41,040 nt of DNA from a bacterium (GTDB taxonomy: Bacteria > Bacteroidota > Rhodothermia > Balneolales > M1805): positions 1-41,040 of the forward strand of contig SBGQ01000077.1 of assembly GCA_006226965.1 (NCBI GenBank), written 5' to 3'. A model generated the notes under the pieces. The model did no database searches. It was not told the origin of the DNA and saw only the letters and a program-made list of their open reading frames with translations. How positions within the stretch are numbered: the stretch's first letter is position 1; every line of letters begins with the position of its first letter. Positions 1,019 through 32,321 of this stretch are shown in pieces. The position numbers and the translations under genes were made by a program.

Positions 1019-1363
1019 ATGGGAGTAACCAAGACCAATCTATTTACAGAAGAGCAAAACGAAATGGCTCAAGTTGCCAAAGTGCTTGGGCATCCGGCTC
1101 GAATTGCCATTTTGCAGCATCTGTTAAAAATGAATACTTGTATAAATAGTGACTTAGTTGATGAGTTGGGTTTAGCTCAGGCAACGATAAGTCAGCATCT
1201 TCGAGAACTGAAAGAAATTGGAATCATTCAAGGGAGCATTGAAGGTGTATCCGTGAATTATTGTATCAATCCAACAAAATGGGATTCCGTGCAAAAGCTT
1301 TTCGAAAGCTTGTTTAGTCAATTTAGTTCAGCCCCCGCAAACTCTTGTTGCTCTACACATTAA
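1019..1363 (+). CDS. arsR: ArsR-family metalloregulator
   Basis: This 114-residue winged-helix repressor has the ArsR/SmtB pattern: VLGHPARIAILQHLL in helices 1-2, a recognition helix at LAQATISQHLRELKEIG (residues 52-68), then the wing and the strand VNYCINP. Candidate arsenite ligands are Cys41 (NTCINSDLV), Cys82 and the C-terminal pair Cys110-Cys111. The classical CxC motif of plasmid R773 ArsR is absent, so As(III) binding may involve the C-terminal pair, as in other atypical ArsR types. It is the first gene of the arsenic operon, directly behind a palindromic operator. The arsM start lies 18 bp after its stop codon. Confidence 0.93.
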   Translation: MGVTKTNLFTEEQNEMAQVAKVLGHPARIAILQHLLKMNTCINSDLVDELGLAQATISQHLRELKEIGIIQGSIEGVSVNYCINPTKWDSVQKLFESLFSQFSSAPANSCCSTH

Positions 1364-1381
1364 CATCAAAAAGAAATCACC

Positions 1382-2278
1382 ATGAAAACTGCTGAAGAAT
1401 TAAAAGAAATCGTTAAAGAGAAATACAGTGCCATCGCATTACAAGAAAAAGAAGTAAATGCGGCCTCTTGTTGTGGCGCAACAACTCCATCAAATAAAGT
1501 TTACAATATAATGATGGATGATTACACCGAAGTTGAGGGTTATAATCCTGATGCGGATTTAGGTTTGGGCTGTGGACTTCCAACTGCATTCGCACAAATA
1601 AAATCGGGGGATACAGTAATAGACTTAGGTTCAGGTGCCGGAAACGATTGTTTCGTAGCTCGCCATGAAGTTGGTTTAACAGGCAAGGTAATCGGTATCG
1701 ATTTCACAGAGGCGATGATCAATAAAGCCCGTGAAAATGCTGATAAACTAGGGTATAACAATGTGGAATTCCGATATGGCGATATCGAAGTGATGCCTGT
1801 TTCAGATAATGTTGCTGATGTTGTGGTTAGTAATTGTGTATTAAATTTGGTTCCGAATAAAGAAAAAGTTGTATCAGAAATTTTCCGAGTGTTAAAACCG
1901 GGCGGACATTTTAGTATCTCTGATATTGTTTTAGTTGGTGATTTACCGAATGAATTGCGTGAAGATGCAGAAATGTATGCAGGTTGTGTTTCAGGGGCGA
2001 TTCAAAAAGATGATTACCTTGGATACATCAAAAATCTTGGGTTCGAAAACGTTGAAATTCAGAAAGAAAAGCCAATTGTTATTCCTGATGATATTCTTGA
2101 AAAGTATTTGAATCAACAAGAGTTGGTTTCTTTCAAATTCGGAAGTACAGGTATTTACAGCATTACCGTTTTTGGTGTGAAACCGGGTGGTGCTAAGCAA
2201 ACGGAAATTCATAAAAGTGAGCAAGCGCCGCGTATTTTAAATCGCGGACGTTGTGCACCAAACTCAGGTTGTTGCTAA
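1382..2278 (+). CDS. arsM: arsenite S-adenosylmethionine methyltransferase
   Basis: This 298-residue class I SAM methyltransferase should methylate trivalent arsenic. The SAM-binding motif is DLGSGAGNDC (81-90). The cysteines known to be needed in the ArsM family are present: Cys64 (GLGCG), Cys152 (SNCVLNL) and Cys202 (AGCVSGA). There is an N-terminal CC pair (30-31) and a Cys-rich C-terminal tail (RCAPNSGCC) that could also hold arsenite. The length suits bacterial ArsM. It is second in the ars operon, so methylation of arsenite appears to be combined here with arsenate reduction and efflux. Confidence 0.93.
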   Translation: MKTAEELKEIVKEKYSAIALQEKEVNAASCCGATTPSNKVYNIMMDDYTEVEGYNPDADLGLGCGLPTAFAQIKSGDTVIDLGSGAGNDCFVARHEVGLTGKVIGIDFTEAMINKARENADKLGYNNVEFRYGDIEVMPVSDNVADVVVSNCVLNLVPNKEKVVSEIFRVLKPGGHFSISDIVLVGDLPNELREDAEMYAGCVSGAIQKDDYLGYIKNLGFENVEIQKEKPIVIPDDILEKYLNQQELVSFKFGSTGIYSITVFGVKPGGAKQTEIHKSEQAPRILNRGRCAPNSGCC

Positions 2279-2308
2279 TTAAAAACTAGGAAATCGGTAA
2301 TAAGATTT

Positions 2309-2929
2309 ATGAATTCAAGGTTGGAAATATATCTTGTTAGAGTAAAAAACTCATTCAATCAAATAAATGAAGAACGAAAAGCAATTTTATTACCGGTTTC
2401 TGAGTATATCAGCCAAAAGATTTTAAAAAATGAGTCGGTAAAGCTGGTTTTTATTTGTACACATAATTCCAGAAGGAGCCATTTGAGTCAGATTTGGGCG
2501 CAGTTGGCGACACATATTTATGGATTATCGGGAAAAATAGAATGTTATTCTGGCGGGACTGAAGCCACTGCGTTTAATCCTCGTGCAGTTGAAGCTGTAA
2601 AACGAGCAGGATTTCAAGTAGAGTTTTCTGGAATAGAAAATCCTATTTATTCAGTCTTTTTTGATGAATCTGAAAAACCGATACAATGCTTTTCAAAAAG
2701 ATACGATTCACCAAAAAATCCTAGTTATGATTTTGCGGCAATTATGACTTGTGATGATGCCGATGCAAACTGTCCGATTGTTTTGGGGGCTGATGCACGT
2801 TTTCCGGTAAAGTATATCGATCCAAAAGTTTCAGATAACACTGAAAAAGAGACACAAACCTATGACGAACGTTGTTTTCAGATTGCAACGGAAATGATGT
2901 TTATGATTTCGAAAGTGAAGAAAGTATGA
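2309..2929 (+). CDS. arsC: thioredoxin-type arsenate reductase (LMW-PTPase fold)
   Basis: The protein has 206 residues and a low-molecular-weight phosphatase fold. The P-loop is C-T-H-N-S-R-R (Cys50 to Arg56, a CX5R motif). A second region has Cys148 and Cys155 in CDDADANCP, the C-X6-C redox pair that carries the disulfide relay in thioredoxin-coupled ArsC of Gram-positive bacteria. It should therefore reduce arsenate to arsenite using thioredoxin. An N-terminal extension of about 45 residues precedes the P-loop strand; classical ArsC has only about 9 residues there. Its TGA overlaps the ATG of acr3 (ATGA, 2926-2929), which implies translational coupling. Function as a plain tyrosine phosphatase is unlikely given the context and the CX6C pair. 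Confidence 0.85.
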
Positions 2930-3960
2930 ATTCCACAAAAAAGCTCTCTTTCTTAGATCGGTTTTTAACGGTTTGGATTTTCTTAGCCATGTTAATCGGA
3001 GTATCGATTGGATATGTGTTTCCAAATTCAGCATCTCTAATTGAGTCTTTAAGTGTTGGCACAACTAATATTCCGATAGCCTTTGGTTTGATTTTAATGA
3101 TGTATCCACCATTGGCAAAAGTGAATTATAGTGCATTGCCAAAGGTTTTTCTTAATGTTAAGGTCTTAAGTTTGTCTCTAATTTTAAACTGGATAATTGG
3201 ACCTATACTCATGTTTGTATTGGCAATTTTGTTTTTACATGAGTATCCAAGTTATATGGTAGGATTGATTTTAATTGGACTTGCCAGATGTATTGCGATG
3301 GTTTTAGTTTGGAATGATTTAGCAGAGGGGAGTCCGGAATACGGAGCAGGACTTGTGGCATTAAACAGTTTATTTCAAGTGTTTGCCTATAGTTTTTATG
3401 CTTGGTTATTTATTACTTGGTTACCTCAATTTTTTGGATTTGACGGTGCAATTGTAGATATAAAAATGTCTGTAATTGCTGAGTCCGTTTTTATCTATTT
3501 GGGAATTCCTTTCTTAGCGGGTTTACTATCAAGAATCATACTAATAAAAAAGAAAGGAGAGGTATGGTTTAAACAAACGTTTATTCCAAGTATATCTCCC
3601 ATTACATTAGTTGCTTTGTTATTTACTATAGTTGTGATGTTCAGCTTAAAAGGTGAGTTGATTATTCAAATTCCGTTAGATGTTGTAAGAATTGCAATTC
3701 CGCTTGTTATTTATTTTATCATCATGTTCCTGCTTGGTTTTATTATCAGTAAGTGGATGGGTACTTCGTATGATAAAAATGCCTCAATTGCTTTTACAGC
3801 GGCTGGTAATAATTTTGAATTAGCTATTGCTGTTGCCATTGCAGTATTTGGTTTAAACAGTGGTGAAGCATTTGCAGGAGTAGTTGGACCCTTAATAGAA
3901 GTTCCGGCTCTTATTCTTCTTGTAAAAGTAGCGTTCGGTTTAAAAAATAGATTTTATTGA
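2926..3960 (+). CDS. acr3: ACR3-family arsenite efflux permease
   Basis: This 344-residue integral membrane protein has about ten hydrophobic segments and belongs to the ACR3 (bile/arsenite/riboflavin transporter) family. The conserved cysteine region [16 protein letters not shown] is present, as is the late-helix motif [19 protein letters not shown] with its conserved Glu. It exports arsenite across the inner membrane. The open frame extends to 2872, but the ATG at 2926 overlaps the arsC stop and gives the normal cytoplasmic N-terminus ([14 protein letters not shown]). No ArsA ATPase is encoded nearby, so it should work as a secondary transporter. It is the last gene of the ars operon and converges on the HD gene with an 8-bp gap and no visible terminator. 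Confidence 0.93.
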
Positions 3961-5304: not shown

Positions 5305-5549
5305 AAGAATAAAGACTAATTTGTCTTAAAATAAGCATTAAATATCAAATGTCAATGCGTAGGCGTAATATTTCGGACGAAAATATCCGATTATTTTTAC
5401 CTACTTGATTTTTTTAAAACAGTAATAAAATTTCACCTACACAATTGAAGATGGCAACGGGATTTCGGTAAAGTGAAAATAGCTAACGTTGAACGGGATT
5501 TCGTTTTACGGTTAAAATTAAATTAGAGAAGTGATTTTTCAACGAAATA
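5305..5549. other. intergenic region with short repeats
   Basis: This 245-bp AT-rich gap separates the Rrf2 gene from the end of the HEAT-like/cyclophilin gene upstream of it. Beyond the Rrf2 operator it holds a 12-bp direct repeat, AACGGGATTTCG, at 5456-5467 and 5492-5503 (36-bp period). It also has an inverted pair ATTTCGTT (5498-5505) / AACGAAAT (5541-5548) and a TCGGA/TCCGA pair near 5370-5390. No reading frame with a coding look was found. Confidence 0.5.
5310..5329. promoter_or_regulatory. predicted Rrf2 operator (autoregulatory)
   Basis: The inverted repeat TAAAGAC-N6-GTCTTAA has arms that match at six of seven positions. It lies directly upstream of the Rrf2 gene start at 5304 (minus strand). 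The same architecture recurs at 8365-8384 upstream of the SQR-like gene. The binding protein is inferred, not shown. Confidence 0.6.
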
Positions 5550-7529
5550 TCATTGTTTTGGGTGAACGCCGGCTTTAAGAACCATATCACCAACAATAAT
5601 TTGATCAACAACTTCTAAGCCCGAAAGTACTTTACCAAAGCGCGTATATCGTCCGTTCAAATGAGGGTGCCATTGGTGCATAATAAAGTATTGTGCGCTT
5701 TCTGTGTCGGTTCCGGCACTCGCCATTCCGATTGTTCCGCGCTCAAATTCTAAGTCAGAGCCTTCCGTTGGTATTATAGTCGATCCGCCGCCGTACCCGT
5801 TGCGAGTTTCAAAATCGCCGCCTTGCATAACAAAATTACCGATTACACGATGAAAGGGAACATTGTCGAACTTGCCGGAATTGCTCAAACTATCAATTAA
5901 CCAAACAGTTGTCGGGTTTCTTTCGGCATCTAATTCAATGGTAATTTCACCTTTGTTTGTAAGTAATGTCAAAATCGGGTGAGCGCCTAAATCTGATAAA
6001 CGACTTCTATTTGGAATTGCCAAAAGAACAGAACTTGCCTCAACTTCGGGTGTGATGTCAACACTAACAAGCGCCTTTTGCAAGGTAGGATTCGAGCTTT
6101 TTGATAATTCAGCAAAGAAATTTGTACTTGATTCCCCGCCAAGTTTTTTAAAAATCGGGATATAAGTTTGAAAAACTTCAATGTCCTGTTCAATGTCTAA
6201 GTTGAGTAAATGAGTTACAAACTCATCCATTGAAATAGCATTTCTGAGTGCCTCGCTTTCGAGTATGGAAACGGAGCCGATTAAAATGCCTCGATCTTTG
6301 CTACTCAATAACTTTCTCAAAAATGGGTAATATGTTTTTTGATTTTTTTGTGATAATTCACCAATTAAAGAGACCGCATATTCTGCAGCAGAAAGTTTTG
6401 AAGCGATTGCTACGGAATCCCAATTATCACTAATTACGAGTAGGATTTTGTCTGCGGTAAGGCTGTTCTCAGCTAATTTAAGCGCCTGATTTAAAGAATA
6501 CGGTTTAGAAATCAAGACAGTTTTTAAATCGTTACTAGTGAACGATTTTGATGCGGATGCATCATAAAGCCGAGCAGATAATCGAATAGGATGGTATTCG
6601 TCTTCATAATAATCTTGCACATCCTTAATGGATTTCTTAAACGTTTCGCCGTTGAGTTTAGGTGCTAACGTTTCAAAATAAGTTTGTAAAGCTAAATTAT
6701 TGCGTGTGGATAAAAATGATACACAAAGTTGAGCGTACTCTTCAGATTCAACATACCTGCCTAAAGCGCGAATCATTTCCACTTGTACATTTACTTCAAG
6801 AGATGGAAAGTTTAAGTCATTCATCCACGTGAGCAGTTCCTGAGACTGAACTTTTGATAAAATCTGAATTAAATATTGTTTGTTAAGGGTACTTAACTGT
6901 TCATAATTCGTTTCCAAAAAGTGAAAAAGCTGAGCAGAGTATTCGGGTTTGTAAATAATTTTTCGTGAACGATATGCACCGTACAAGTAATTGGTAATCA
7001 ATAGATTATTTACCACCGCTGTTGTTTTTTGAACCCAAGTTTTCAACAAAGAATCTGGAATTTCATAGGTAAGTGAACTTCGACTTATAGCATAAGCAAA
7101 AGCTTTTTCCTGCTCAGGATCGGAAGATTTTACCCAGTTTTCTAAAAGCCATAAATGTGTTGTCCAATCTGCTTTTTCACCAAGAGTTATAATCACATCC
7201 GGTTTGTAAACAGGGTTCATTTGGGGATAATCAGCAATAATACTTGCTAAATGAGCGTCTTTTAACGGCTGGCCTCGAAGAGAGAAAAATCCCAGCTTAC
7301 TTGGGTTATTTAGTACTCTATTGAGTAATACATCCACATTTCCGCTTGTGTTATATAATGCTCTATATGCCTGATCGGAAATATTCTTGTCTCTACTGTT
7401 TGTAAGTTCAATTAGTTTAGTGAAATCACGTTTTGAGACCGCTAAATCCAATTCTGTATAATTTGTTTGCTTAGTTGAGCAAGCAGAGAGAATCAAAAAT
7501 CCCCATAAAGACAAAAAAAATAATTTCAT
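5550..7529 (-). CDS. HEAT-like repeat lipoprotein with C-terminal cyclophilin domain
   Basis: The predicted lipoprotein has about 659 residues. MKLFFLSLWGFLILSAC is a lipobox signal; the frame is open to 7574, but the ATG at 7529 is needed for this signal. A long all-helical middle resembles HEAT-like repeats. The last 145 residues or so are a cyclophilin peptidyl-prolyl isomerase: FHRVIGNFVMQGGD carries the catalytic-site Arg, and GTIGMASAG, AQYFIMHQW and NGRYTRFGKV follow. The usual active-site tryptophan position is His here (HPHLNGRY). It should help fold envelope proteins. It is divergent from lexA across a 68-bp gap, so the promoters must be adjacent or overlapping. Confidence 0.87.
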   Translation of the reverse strand: MKLFFLSLWGFLILSACSTKQTNYTELDLAVSKRDFTKLIELTNSRDKNISDQAYRALYNTSGNVDVLLNRVLNNPSKLGFFSLRGQPLKDAHLASIIADYPQMNPVYKPDVIITLGEKADWTTHLWLLENWVKSSDPEQEKAFAYAISRSSLTYEIPDSLLKTWVQKTTAVVNNLLITNYLYGAYRSRKIIYKPEYSAQLFHFLETNYEQLSTLNKQYLIQILSKVQSQELLTWMNDLNFPSLEVNVQVEMIRALGRYVESEEYAQLCVSFLSTRNNLALQTYFETLAPKLNGETFKKSIKDVQDYYEDEYHPIRLSARLYDASASKSFTSNDLKTVLISKPYSLNQALKLAENSLTADKILLVISDNWDSVAIASKLSAAEYAVSLIGELSQKNQKTYYPFLRKLLSSKDRGILIGSVSILESEALRNAISMDEFVTHLLNLDIEQDIEVFQTYIPIFKKLGGESSTNFFAELSKSSNPTLQKALVSVDITPEVEASSVLLAIPNRSRLSDLGAHPILTLLTNKGEITIELDAERNPTTVWLIDSLSNSGKFDNVPFHRVIGNFVMQGGDFETRNGYGGGSTIIPTEGSDLEFERGTIGMASAGTDTESAQYFIMHQWHPHLNGRYTRFGKVLSGLEVVDQIIVGDMVLKAGVHPKQ

Positions 7530-7570
7530 ACTTGATTTATGTTTGGCTTTTAGTATATTGCACATATAAC

Positions 7571-7580
7571 ACATATATGT
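7571..7580. promoter_or_regulatory. palindrome in the lexA upstream region
   Basis: This is a perfect 10-bp palindrome (ACATATATGT) 17 bp before the lexA ATG, in the short gap between lexA and the divergent cyclophilin lipoprotein gene. A second ACATATA lies at 7562-7568. It could be the LexA operator, but the sequence is AT-rich and does not match the E. coli or Bacillus SOS boxes, so this is tentative. Confidence 0.35.
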
Positions 7581-7597
7581 ATAAAAATAAATCGGTT

Positions 7598-8260
7598 ATG
7601 GATAATAATCAGTTAACTCGAAAACAACGAGAGTTTTTCCACTACATCGTAGAATACAAAAAAGATAACGATGCGTGGCCAACCTATCGGGAAATCGCTG
7701 ATAAATTTGATTTTAAATCTCCCAATAGCGTCACTCAAAATATTAAATCGCTCATCAAAAAAGGATATCTGAAAAAGACGAATGAAGATGAGTACGAGTT
7801 GGCAAATCAGGGAAATCGATATATCAATGATGAAATTGAAGAGGAAGTAACCTATGGCGGAATTCCTGTAAAAGGAATTATAACTGCCGGTTATTTACAA
7901 GAAGCGGTTGAAGCTAATTTAGGCTCAATCACCTTAAATATGATTTTTCCTAATCTGAGTAAAATGTTTGCGCTCCGTGTTGCCGGTATGAGTATGCGCG
8001 ATGCGGGAATTTCTGACGGGGATTTTGTTCTTCTTTGTGATGATGATGTGAAAAACGGTGATATAGGCGCAGTTTTATACAATGGCGAAACCAGTTTAAA
8101 ACGCATTTTTTATGATAAAAACGGATTACGATTAGAACCTGCAAACGACGCGTATTCTGCTATTCAGGTAGAACCGGATGTTTTTGAAGAGGTTCGCATC
8201 ATTGGTAAATATGTCGGGCATGTGAATAAGTCCGGTATTTATAAAAACCGTCACAACTAA
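7598..8260 (+). CDS. lexA: LexA repressor
   Basis: This 220-residue SOS repressor has an N-terminal winged helix (LTRKQREFFHYIVEY, then PTYREIADKFDFKSPNSVTQNI). Its C-terminal self-cleaving peptidase carries the cleavage bond Ala97-Gly98 (ITAGYL), Ser132 (GMSMRDAGI) and Lys168 (SLKRIF). The cleavage-site-to-Ser distance of 35 equals that of E. coli LexA, and Ser-to-Lys is 36 versus 37. A longer frame from 7475 runs back into the divergent gene, and an ATG at 7577 lies inside a palindrome. The ATG at 7598 (MDNNQLTRKQ) gives the usual N-terminus. A terminator follows at 8300. Confidence 0.93.
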   Translation: MDNNQLTRKQREFFHYIVEYKKDNDAWPTYREIADKFDFKSPNSVTQNIKSLIKKGYLKKTNEDEYELANQGNRYINDEIEEEVTYGGIPVKGIITAGYLQEAVEANLGSITLNMIFPNLSKMFALRVAGMSMRDAGISDGDFVLLCDDDVKNGDIGAVLYNGETSLKRIFYDKNGLRLEPANDAYSAIQVEPDVFEEVRIIGKYVGHVNKSGIYKNRHN

Positions 8261-8299
8261 TTATGATTTAAGAGTTATACCTAACACTCAAAACTCGAT

Positions 8300-8335
8300 G
8301 CCGATGTATTCTTGAAAAGAGTCATCGGCTTTTTT
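8300..8335 (+). terminator. intrinsic terminator of lexA
   Basis: The stem GCCGATG (8300-8306) / CATCGGC (8323-8329) is followed by six T. Its 16-nt loop contains a further short TCTT/AAGA pairing. It begins 39 bp after the lexA stop codon and separates lexA from the sqr promoter. Confidence 0.85.
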
Positions 8336-8364
8336 GTACCTATCATTAGAGAATTCCAATGTTA

Positions 8365-8384
8365 TTAAGATAAAAAAGTCTTAA
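8365..8384. promoter_or_regulatory. predicted Rrf2 operator upstream of the SQR-like gene
   Basis: The inverted repeat TTAAGAT-N6-GTCTTAA has six of seven arm positions matching. It lies 48 bp before the ATG of the SQR-like gene and has the same arms and the same 6-bp spacer as the site at 5310-5329. It is taken as a binding site of the Rrf2 regulator. Confidence 0.55.
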
Positions 8385-9903: not shown

Positions 9904-10050
9904 ATGAGTAAAAGAATTCCATATGGTCAGAATTATTACCCACCGGTACCGACAGGTTTTACAAAATGGAAACGAATTAGTAAGTTTTGGCAGTTCTTTA
10001 GATTTATGATTATCAATCTAAAAATGCTTAGAATGGTAAGGAAACATTAG
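9904..10050 (+). CDS. 48-aa basic small protein downstream of SQR
   Basis: This is a short open frame with an ATG at 9904, TAG at 10048-10050 and a good ribosome site (GAAAGGAG) about 6 nt upstream. The predicted peptide starts MSKRIPYGQNYYPPVPTGF and continues with Trp/Phe-rich, hydrophobic and basic residues, ending in RMVRKH. The C-terminal half could be an amphipathic helix lying on the membrane. It is 13 bp after the SQR-like gene and just before the shared terminator, so the two form an operon. I do not recognise a family. A role in membrane attachment, assembly or quinone access of the oxidoreductase is a guess from position only. Confidence 0.7.
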   Translation: MSKRIPYGQNYYPPVPTGFTKWKRISKFWQFFRFMIINLKMLRMVRKH

Positions 10051-32238: not shown

Positions 32239-32321
32239 ATGTAAAAATATTTTTAATTAAAGTTCTGCTGAAACGAAATTATATTCACGGCGTATCGGCG
32301 TCGGTCTTAAAATAAGGTCTC

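Follow-up and report, generated by a model that had tools for sequence, protein, structure and literature searches.

The window analysed here is the whole stretch of 41,040 nucleotides (contig SBGQ01000077.1, positions 1 to 41,040). It holds a gene for an Rrf2-family regulator of 140 aa on the reverse strand (P0001, 4882–5304; assigned by PF02082, TIGR00738, alignment and tree) and a gene for an SQR-like flavoprotein of 485 aa on the forward strand (P0002, 8433–9890; PDB 3hyv SQR, E=1.3e-37). Directly downstream of the SQR gene follows a micro-protein of 48 aa (9904–10050, forward strand), which is probably encoded in the same operon. The region of the SQR operator is immediately preceded by a gene for a LexA-like repressor (7601–8260, forward strand; TIGR00498, 111.8 bits, just above the cut-off). 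Positions 1019–3960 are occupied by a probable arsenic cluster, in which an ArsR regulator was recognized by HTH_5, whereas an arsenite methyltransferase, an arsenate-reductase-like protein and an Acr3-type transporter were assigned by eye.

Both the regulator and the SQR gene are preceded by a 20-bp inverted repeat. The site before the Rrf2 gene (5310–5329, reverse strand) reads TAAAGAC-TAATTT-GTCTTAA on the forward strand and TTAAGAC-AAATTA-GTCTTTA in the orientation of the gene, and the site before the SQR gene (8365–8384, forward strand) reads TTAAGAT-AAAAAA-GTCTTAA. As described in the original prediction, both are found at these positions with one mismatch each to TTAAGAC-N6-GTCTTAA, both are intergenic, and the SQR start codon is 48 bp away from its site. 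The gap to the ATG of the Rrf2 gene, given before as 6 bp, is 5 bp, and the spacers, described as the same, agree in length (6 bp) but not in sequence (TAATTT vs AAAAAA). A half-site GTCTTAA near 32304 could also be located, and its second arm is indeed absent.

For scoring, a weight matrix was trained on 39 distinct sites before homologous Rrf2 genes, taken from other named genomes only; these training sites were first picked by likeness to the TTAAGAC-N6-GTCTTAA motif with at most three mismatches. Among the 20-mers of the window, the two sites rank first and second with 24.7 and 22.6 bits, and the third reaches 5.2 bits. The concern that the motif might be common in random sequence is not borne out for sites of this grade: 4 Mb of Markov-random sequence with the dinucleotide statistics of the window contains none with at least 22.6 bits, and nine reach 14 bits. 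With the true matrix, 10 sites of at least 18 bits were found in 0.24 Mb of this genome and 98 in 1.2 Mb of relatives' loci, compared to none with the reversed and spacer-shifted matrices in the same sequences; since the relatives' loci had been selected because they contain Rrf2, SQR or, in part, the motif itself, the contrast between the matrices counts here and not the density of sites.

Whole-genome scans were performed by pattern matching (3.78 Mb, 184 contigs). The raw count of the motif shows no excess over a reversed-pattern control (5 vs 6), a comparison that is uninformative, so that spacer-shifted controls were used instead; the reversed pattern is often equally common or commoner than the motif, probably a composition effect. 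In 60 genomes, a spacer of 6 bp gave 55 matches and a spacer of 7 bp 18 matches, none of them perfect, and the corresponding numbers in this genome are 5 and 1. As the raw count does not exceed its control, the case is based on sequence quality, position and conservation instead, and on these grounds we regard the two sites as genuine.

The site is conserved before homologous Rrf2 genes. Within the order, where the named relatives are Balneolales and Balneolaceae, 24 of 31 subfamily Rrf2 genes carry it just before the start codon (at most three mismatches). In a set of 80 named loci that spans several phyla (Balneolota, KSB1, Zixibacteria, Calditrichota, Ignavibacteria, Gemmatimonadota, Chitinophagaceae and others), 36 were found to have a site with at most two mismatches, where 0.25 are expected from shuffled upstream regions. 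The conservation in relatives on which the original prediction had been made to depend is thus observed for the regulator. Usually the site is located 7–35 bp before the start codon and overlaps the −10 box; its consensus in gene orientation is TTAAGAYAAAAKARTCTTAA. In 37 of 45 promoters a −10-like box lies over the left arm of the operator (13.5 expected), and 18 of the 45 have a TTGACA-like −35 box (1.9 expected). The predicted Rrf2 promoter of the window (5328–5355, reverse strand), with −35 TTGACA at 5355–5350, 16 bp of spacing and −10 TATTTT at 5333–5328, exhibits the same layout, its −10 overlapping the left arm. Such a position is the place where a repressor would sit and fits an autorepressor. 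At the SQR gene a TTATT-type −10 precedes the operator and the −35 is weak (by eye). We assign the site, on sequence evidence, as the operator of a broad Rrf2 subfamily characterized by C-x6-C-x5-C-x2-H plus Cys7. A Crp/Fnr-type factor as owner of the sites was dropped, because they precede Rrf2 genes across many phyla. A literature search with the letters of the motif returned only unrelated papers among the matches listed.

P0001 scores above the cut-offs of both superfamily models (PF02082: 95.7 bits, cut-off 30; TIGR00738: 97.0 bits, cut-off 73.3). The ligands Cys92, Cys99, Cys105 and His108 proposed earlier were confirmed and are almost invariant across the subfamily. With its three cysteines P0001 falls into the Fe-S branch, the cluster itself being predicted, and Cys7 is typical of the subfamily. 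Position 40 is Thr in P0001 and His in 108 of 117 cases. In the tree P0001 forms a long branch of uncertain placement, nearest to members from KSB1, Zixibacteria and Calditrichota that share the operator. It can be classified as a divergent member of the C-x6-C-x5-C-x2-H subfamily, and with its long branch and Thr40 it may have moved away from the others in specificity or signal. Its closest relative, L161 of KSB1, is flanked, by eye, by a DsrE-like gene on the upstream side and a RIC-like gene on the downstream side, neighbours hinting at sulfur and NO links together.

Four further Rrf2 paralogues occur in the same genome, three with the ligand pattern (C151a, C151b and C177) and one without it (C99). 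Both C151 paralogues are part of a clade II nos cluster (NosZ 922 bits, TIGR04246), and at their own starts a matching site is absent. Upstream of C177, which is closest to the common type, a perfect palindrome, ATCAGAC-N6-GTCTGAT (C177:890–909), is separated from the start by 6 bp. This palindrome differs from the TTAAGAC type, indicating that the operators have begun to diverge among the paralogues; with three paralogues carrying the ligand pattern and a related operator at C177, cross-binding is possible.

Clustering of the genes downstream of the relatives' sites revealed Rrf2 in first place, followed by the RIC family of iron-sulfur repair proteins, a cytochrome c, copper nitrite reductases and DUF2249; a cupin gene is also among these targets. 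Profile searches yielded 256 bits for RIC (TIGR03652) and 476 bits for one NirK member (TIGR02376), another being below the cut-off. The cytochrome c family is nos-type, and its members stand before NosZ both at C151 of this genome and at L229. In the genome under study, the motif was found five times when one mismatch was allowed, each time in an intergenic position at most 72 bp from a start codon: at the Rrf2 gene, at SQR, at a YceI gene (with a second site adjoining), at a universal stress protein and at EF-G2. Sites with at least 18 bits were also found before HemN, CcsB (encoded in a run of genes next to nrfHA) and the DUF2249-cupin operon of the nos cluster, as well as before a cNMP-binding phosphofructokinase and a chemoreceptor. 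The weaker sites (phosphofructokinase, chemoreceptor, universal stress protein at 14 bits) may include chance matches. Sites at citrate synthase, tryptophanase-like, PEPCK and PPDK genes were set aside, being weak, distant from the start or seen only once. A RIC homologue was not found in this genome in a search run without positive control. The expectation that hits might cluster before sulfur genes did not hold, as most of the predicted targets in this genome are nitrogen-oxide and anaerobic respiration genes.

Cys141, Cys179 and Cys413 of P0002 align with the cysteines of Aquifex SQR (3hyv), all three catalytic positions being kept, and SQR function is predicted on this basis. With 54.4 bits against a cut-off of 525, P0002 does not fall under the type III selenoprotein SQR model NF049943. 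Orthologues with 38–67% identity were found in 96 of the 395 genomes sampled across the phylum and in 2 of 129 genomes of the order; due to this rarity in the order the gene was probably acquired. In most of the phylum loci examined (L072, L125–L152), the SQR gene is directly followed by a micro-protein of 48–53 aa with the pattern PPVP...WRK..WQ..RF..LN.KM.R, which gave no match in Pfam and NCBIfam and is possibly an SQR partner. Upstream of the SQR orthologues, no site with at most three mismatches was found at 29 loci, including the one of the same order. The conserved operator expected of a sulfide-responsive SQR regulon was hence not seen, and the link between regulator and SQR is lineage-specific as far as visible with comparison genomes from outside its family.

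The original prediction of a small regulon, in which an Fe-S Rrf2 protein controls itself and sulfide oxidation, therefore stands in part. It is probable that an Fe-S-type Rrf2 protein binds both its own promoter and that of SQR, given the operator's conservation before homologous Rrf2 genes and its position over −10 boxes, and as a prediction of binding sites the link between regulator and SQR has good support. The part describing the regulon as small and concerned with sulfide is not supported, since in relatives this operator is found ahead of the genes for RIC, NirK, nos-type cytochrome c and DUF2249 and the SQR orthologues are without the site. We consider it probable that P0001 represses nitrogen-oxide and anaerobic respiration as an NsrR-like Fe-S protein and that SQR was acquired as a target in this lineage.

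In principle, the SQR site could be a chance palindrome, the autoregulatory Rrf2 site alone being functional. The missing conservation before SQR orthologues, that of the same order included, and raw motif counts not above the reversed control would be in accordance with this, but the site reaches 22.6 bits with an independent matrix, a score absent from 4 Mb of random sequence, while reversed and spacer-shifted matrices never arrive at 18 bits. Its location, intergenic, 48 bp before the start and oriented like the site of the nearby regulator, also renders coincidence very improbable. A true operator might be served by another paralogue, C177, C151a or C151b, as four subfamily members exist in one genome and a related operator lies 6 bp ahead of the start of C177. 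The SQR site, however, has the arms TTAAGA of the P0001 operator and not the ATCAGAC of C177, and the C151 paralogues lack such a site at their own starts; binding by one of these proteins in place of P0001 appears quite unlikely to us.

P0001 could furthermore be a dedicated sensor of sulfide or persulfide that controls mainly itself and SQR via its cluster or cysteines, with the nitrogen-oxide task left to C177 and the C151 paralogues. The distance of about 3 kb between SQR and Rrf2 with their matching operators, the long branch, the extra cysteines (3, 7, 66) and Thr40 of P0001, and the DsrE-like gene just upstream of its closest relative L161 (KSB1, by eye) would agree with such a specialization. 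It is nevertheless unlikely, as the TTAAGAC-type operator in this genome is also present before CcsB beside nrfHA, HemN and the nos-linked DUF2249 operon, the L161 regulator adjoins a RIC-like gene as well, and the SQR orthologues carry no site.

For the NsrR-like repressor that we prefer, a dimer would bind TTAAGAY-N6-RTCTTAA over the −10 boxes of its own and its target promoters in the resting state and thereby block transcription. NO or related species would damage the cluster, resulting in release of the repressor. NO as the signal is suggested by the target genes together with the known behaviour of NsrR (PMC1274295; PMC2577008). Genes of nitrogen-oxide respiration and NO damage would represent the conserved targets, and in this lineage SQR with the micro-protein, YceI, HemN and the genes beside nrfHA and nos would belong to the regulon as well. 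More tentatively, the FCB group and neighbouring phyla may share one ancient nitrogen-oxide Rrf2 regulator, with operator and ligands unlike those of NsrR, which captured sulfide oxidation here; one NO-sensing Fe-S repressor would then tie exposure to NO or nitrite to sulfide removal.

The P0001 subfamily is similar to NsrR in its Rrf2 fold, Fe-S cysteines and putative repression. Published NsrR targets include dnrN, a RIC-type repair protein, and nirK (PMC1274295), and the targets of the subfamily overlap with both; with RIC, NirK, nos-type cytochrome c and DUF2249 they have the composition of an NsrR-type regulon (NO detoxification, denitrification). In contrast, P0001 obtains 47.6 bits with NF008240 (cut-off 182), the NsrR operator is gATGyAT-N5-ATrCATc compared to TTAAGAY-N6-RTCTTAA here, and the subfamily exhibits a CPLH-type histidine and FCB-group instead of proteobacterial or firmicute hosts. 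By model score or operator P0001 is not classified as NsrR. A classical NsrR site was also searched for in the window and rejected, the matches being no better than in shuffles and none near the Rrf2 or SQR start.

IscR provides the closest solved structures (4hf0, E=2.4e-9), and its positions 98, 104 and His107 align with Cys99, Cys105 and His108 of P0001. It differs by a C-x5-C spacing, compared to C-x6-C in P0001, which scores 67.2 with TIGR02010 (cut-off 207.6) and 54.7 with NF008110 (cut-off 275); isc and suf genes are absent from the targets seen.

Rrf2 control of nos was suggested for Melioribacter by genome analysis (Melioribacter roseus Mros1101; PMC3534657), and another study reported that clade II nos scaffolds contain Rrf2 genes (PMC6264515). 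These BadM/Rrf2 regulators probably share their regulatory role with the subfamily described here, where Rrf2 likewise stands beside cytochrome c and NosZ at C151 and in L229, although the P0001 gene itself is not located in a nos cluster. In the literature accessible to us, these two papers included and subscription journals poorly covered, no description of an operator for clade II nos Rrf2 genes was found. Rrf2 genes beside clade II nos clusters have been suspected of regulating N2O reduction in Bacteroidota-type bacteria, and with TTAAGAYAAAAKARTCTTAA over a −10 box prediction of their regulons is enabled across many uncultured lineages.

Repression of an SQR gene is known from CstR of Staphylococcus aureus, which in contrast to P0001 is a CsoR-like dithiol persulfide sensor and not an Rrf2 protein (PMC5480029). 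In S. aureus the responses to nitroxyl and sulfide meet (PMC5480029), and by analogy it is plausible that SQR has a functional place in such a regulon. The link between P0001 and SQR offers a concrete case in which nitrogen-oxide control may reach sulfide removal.
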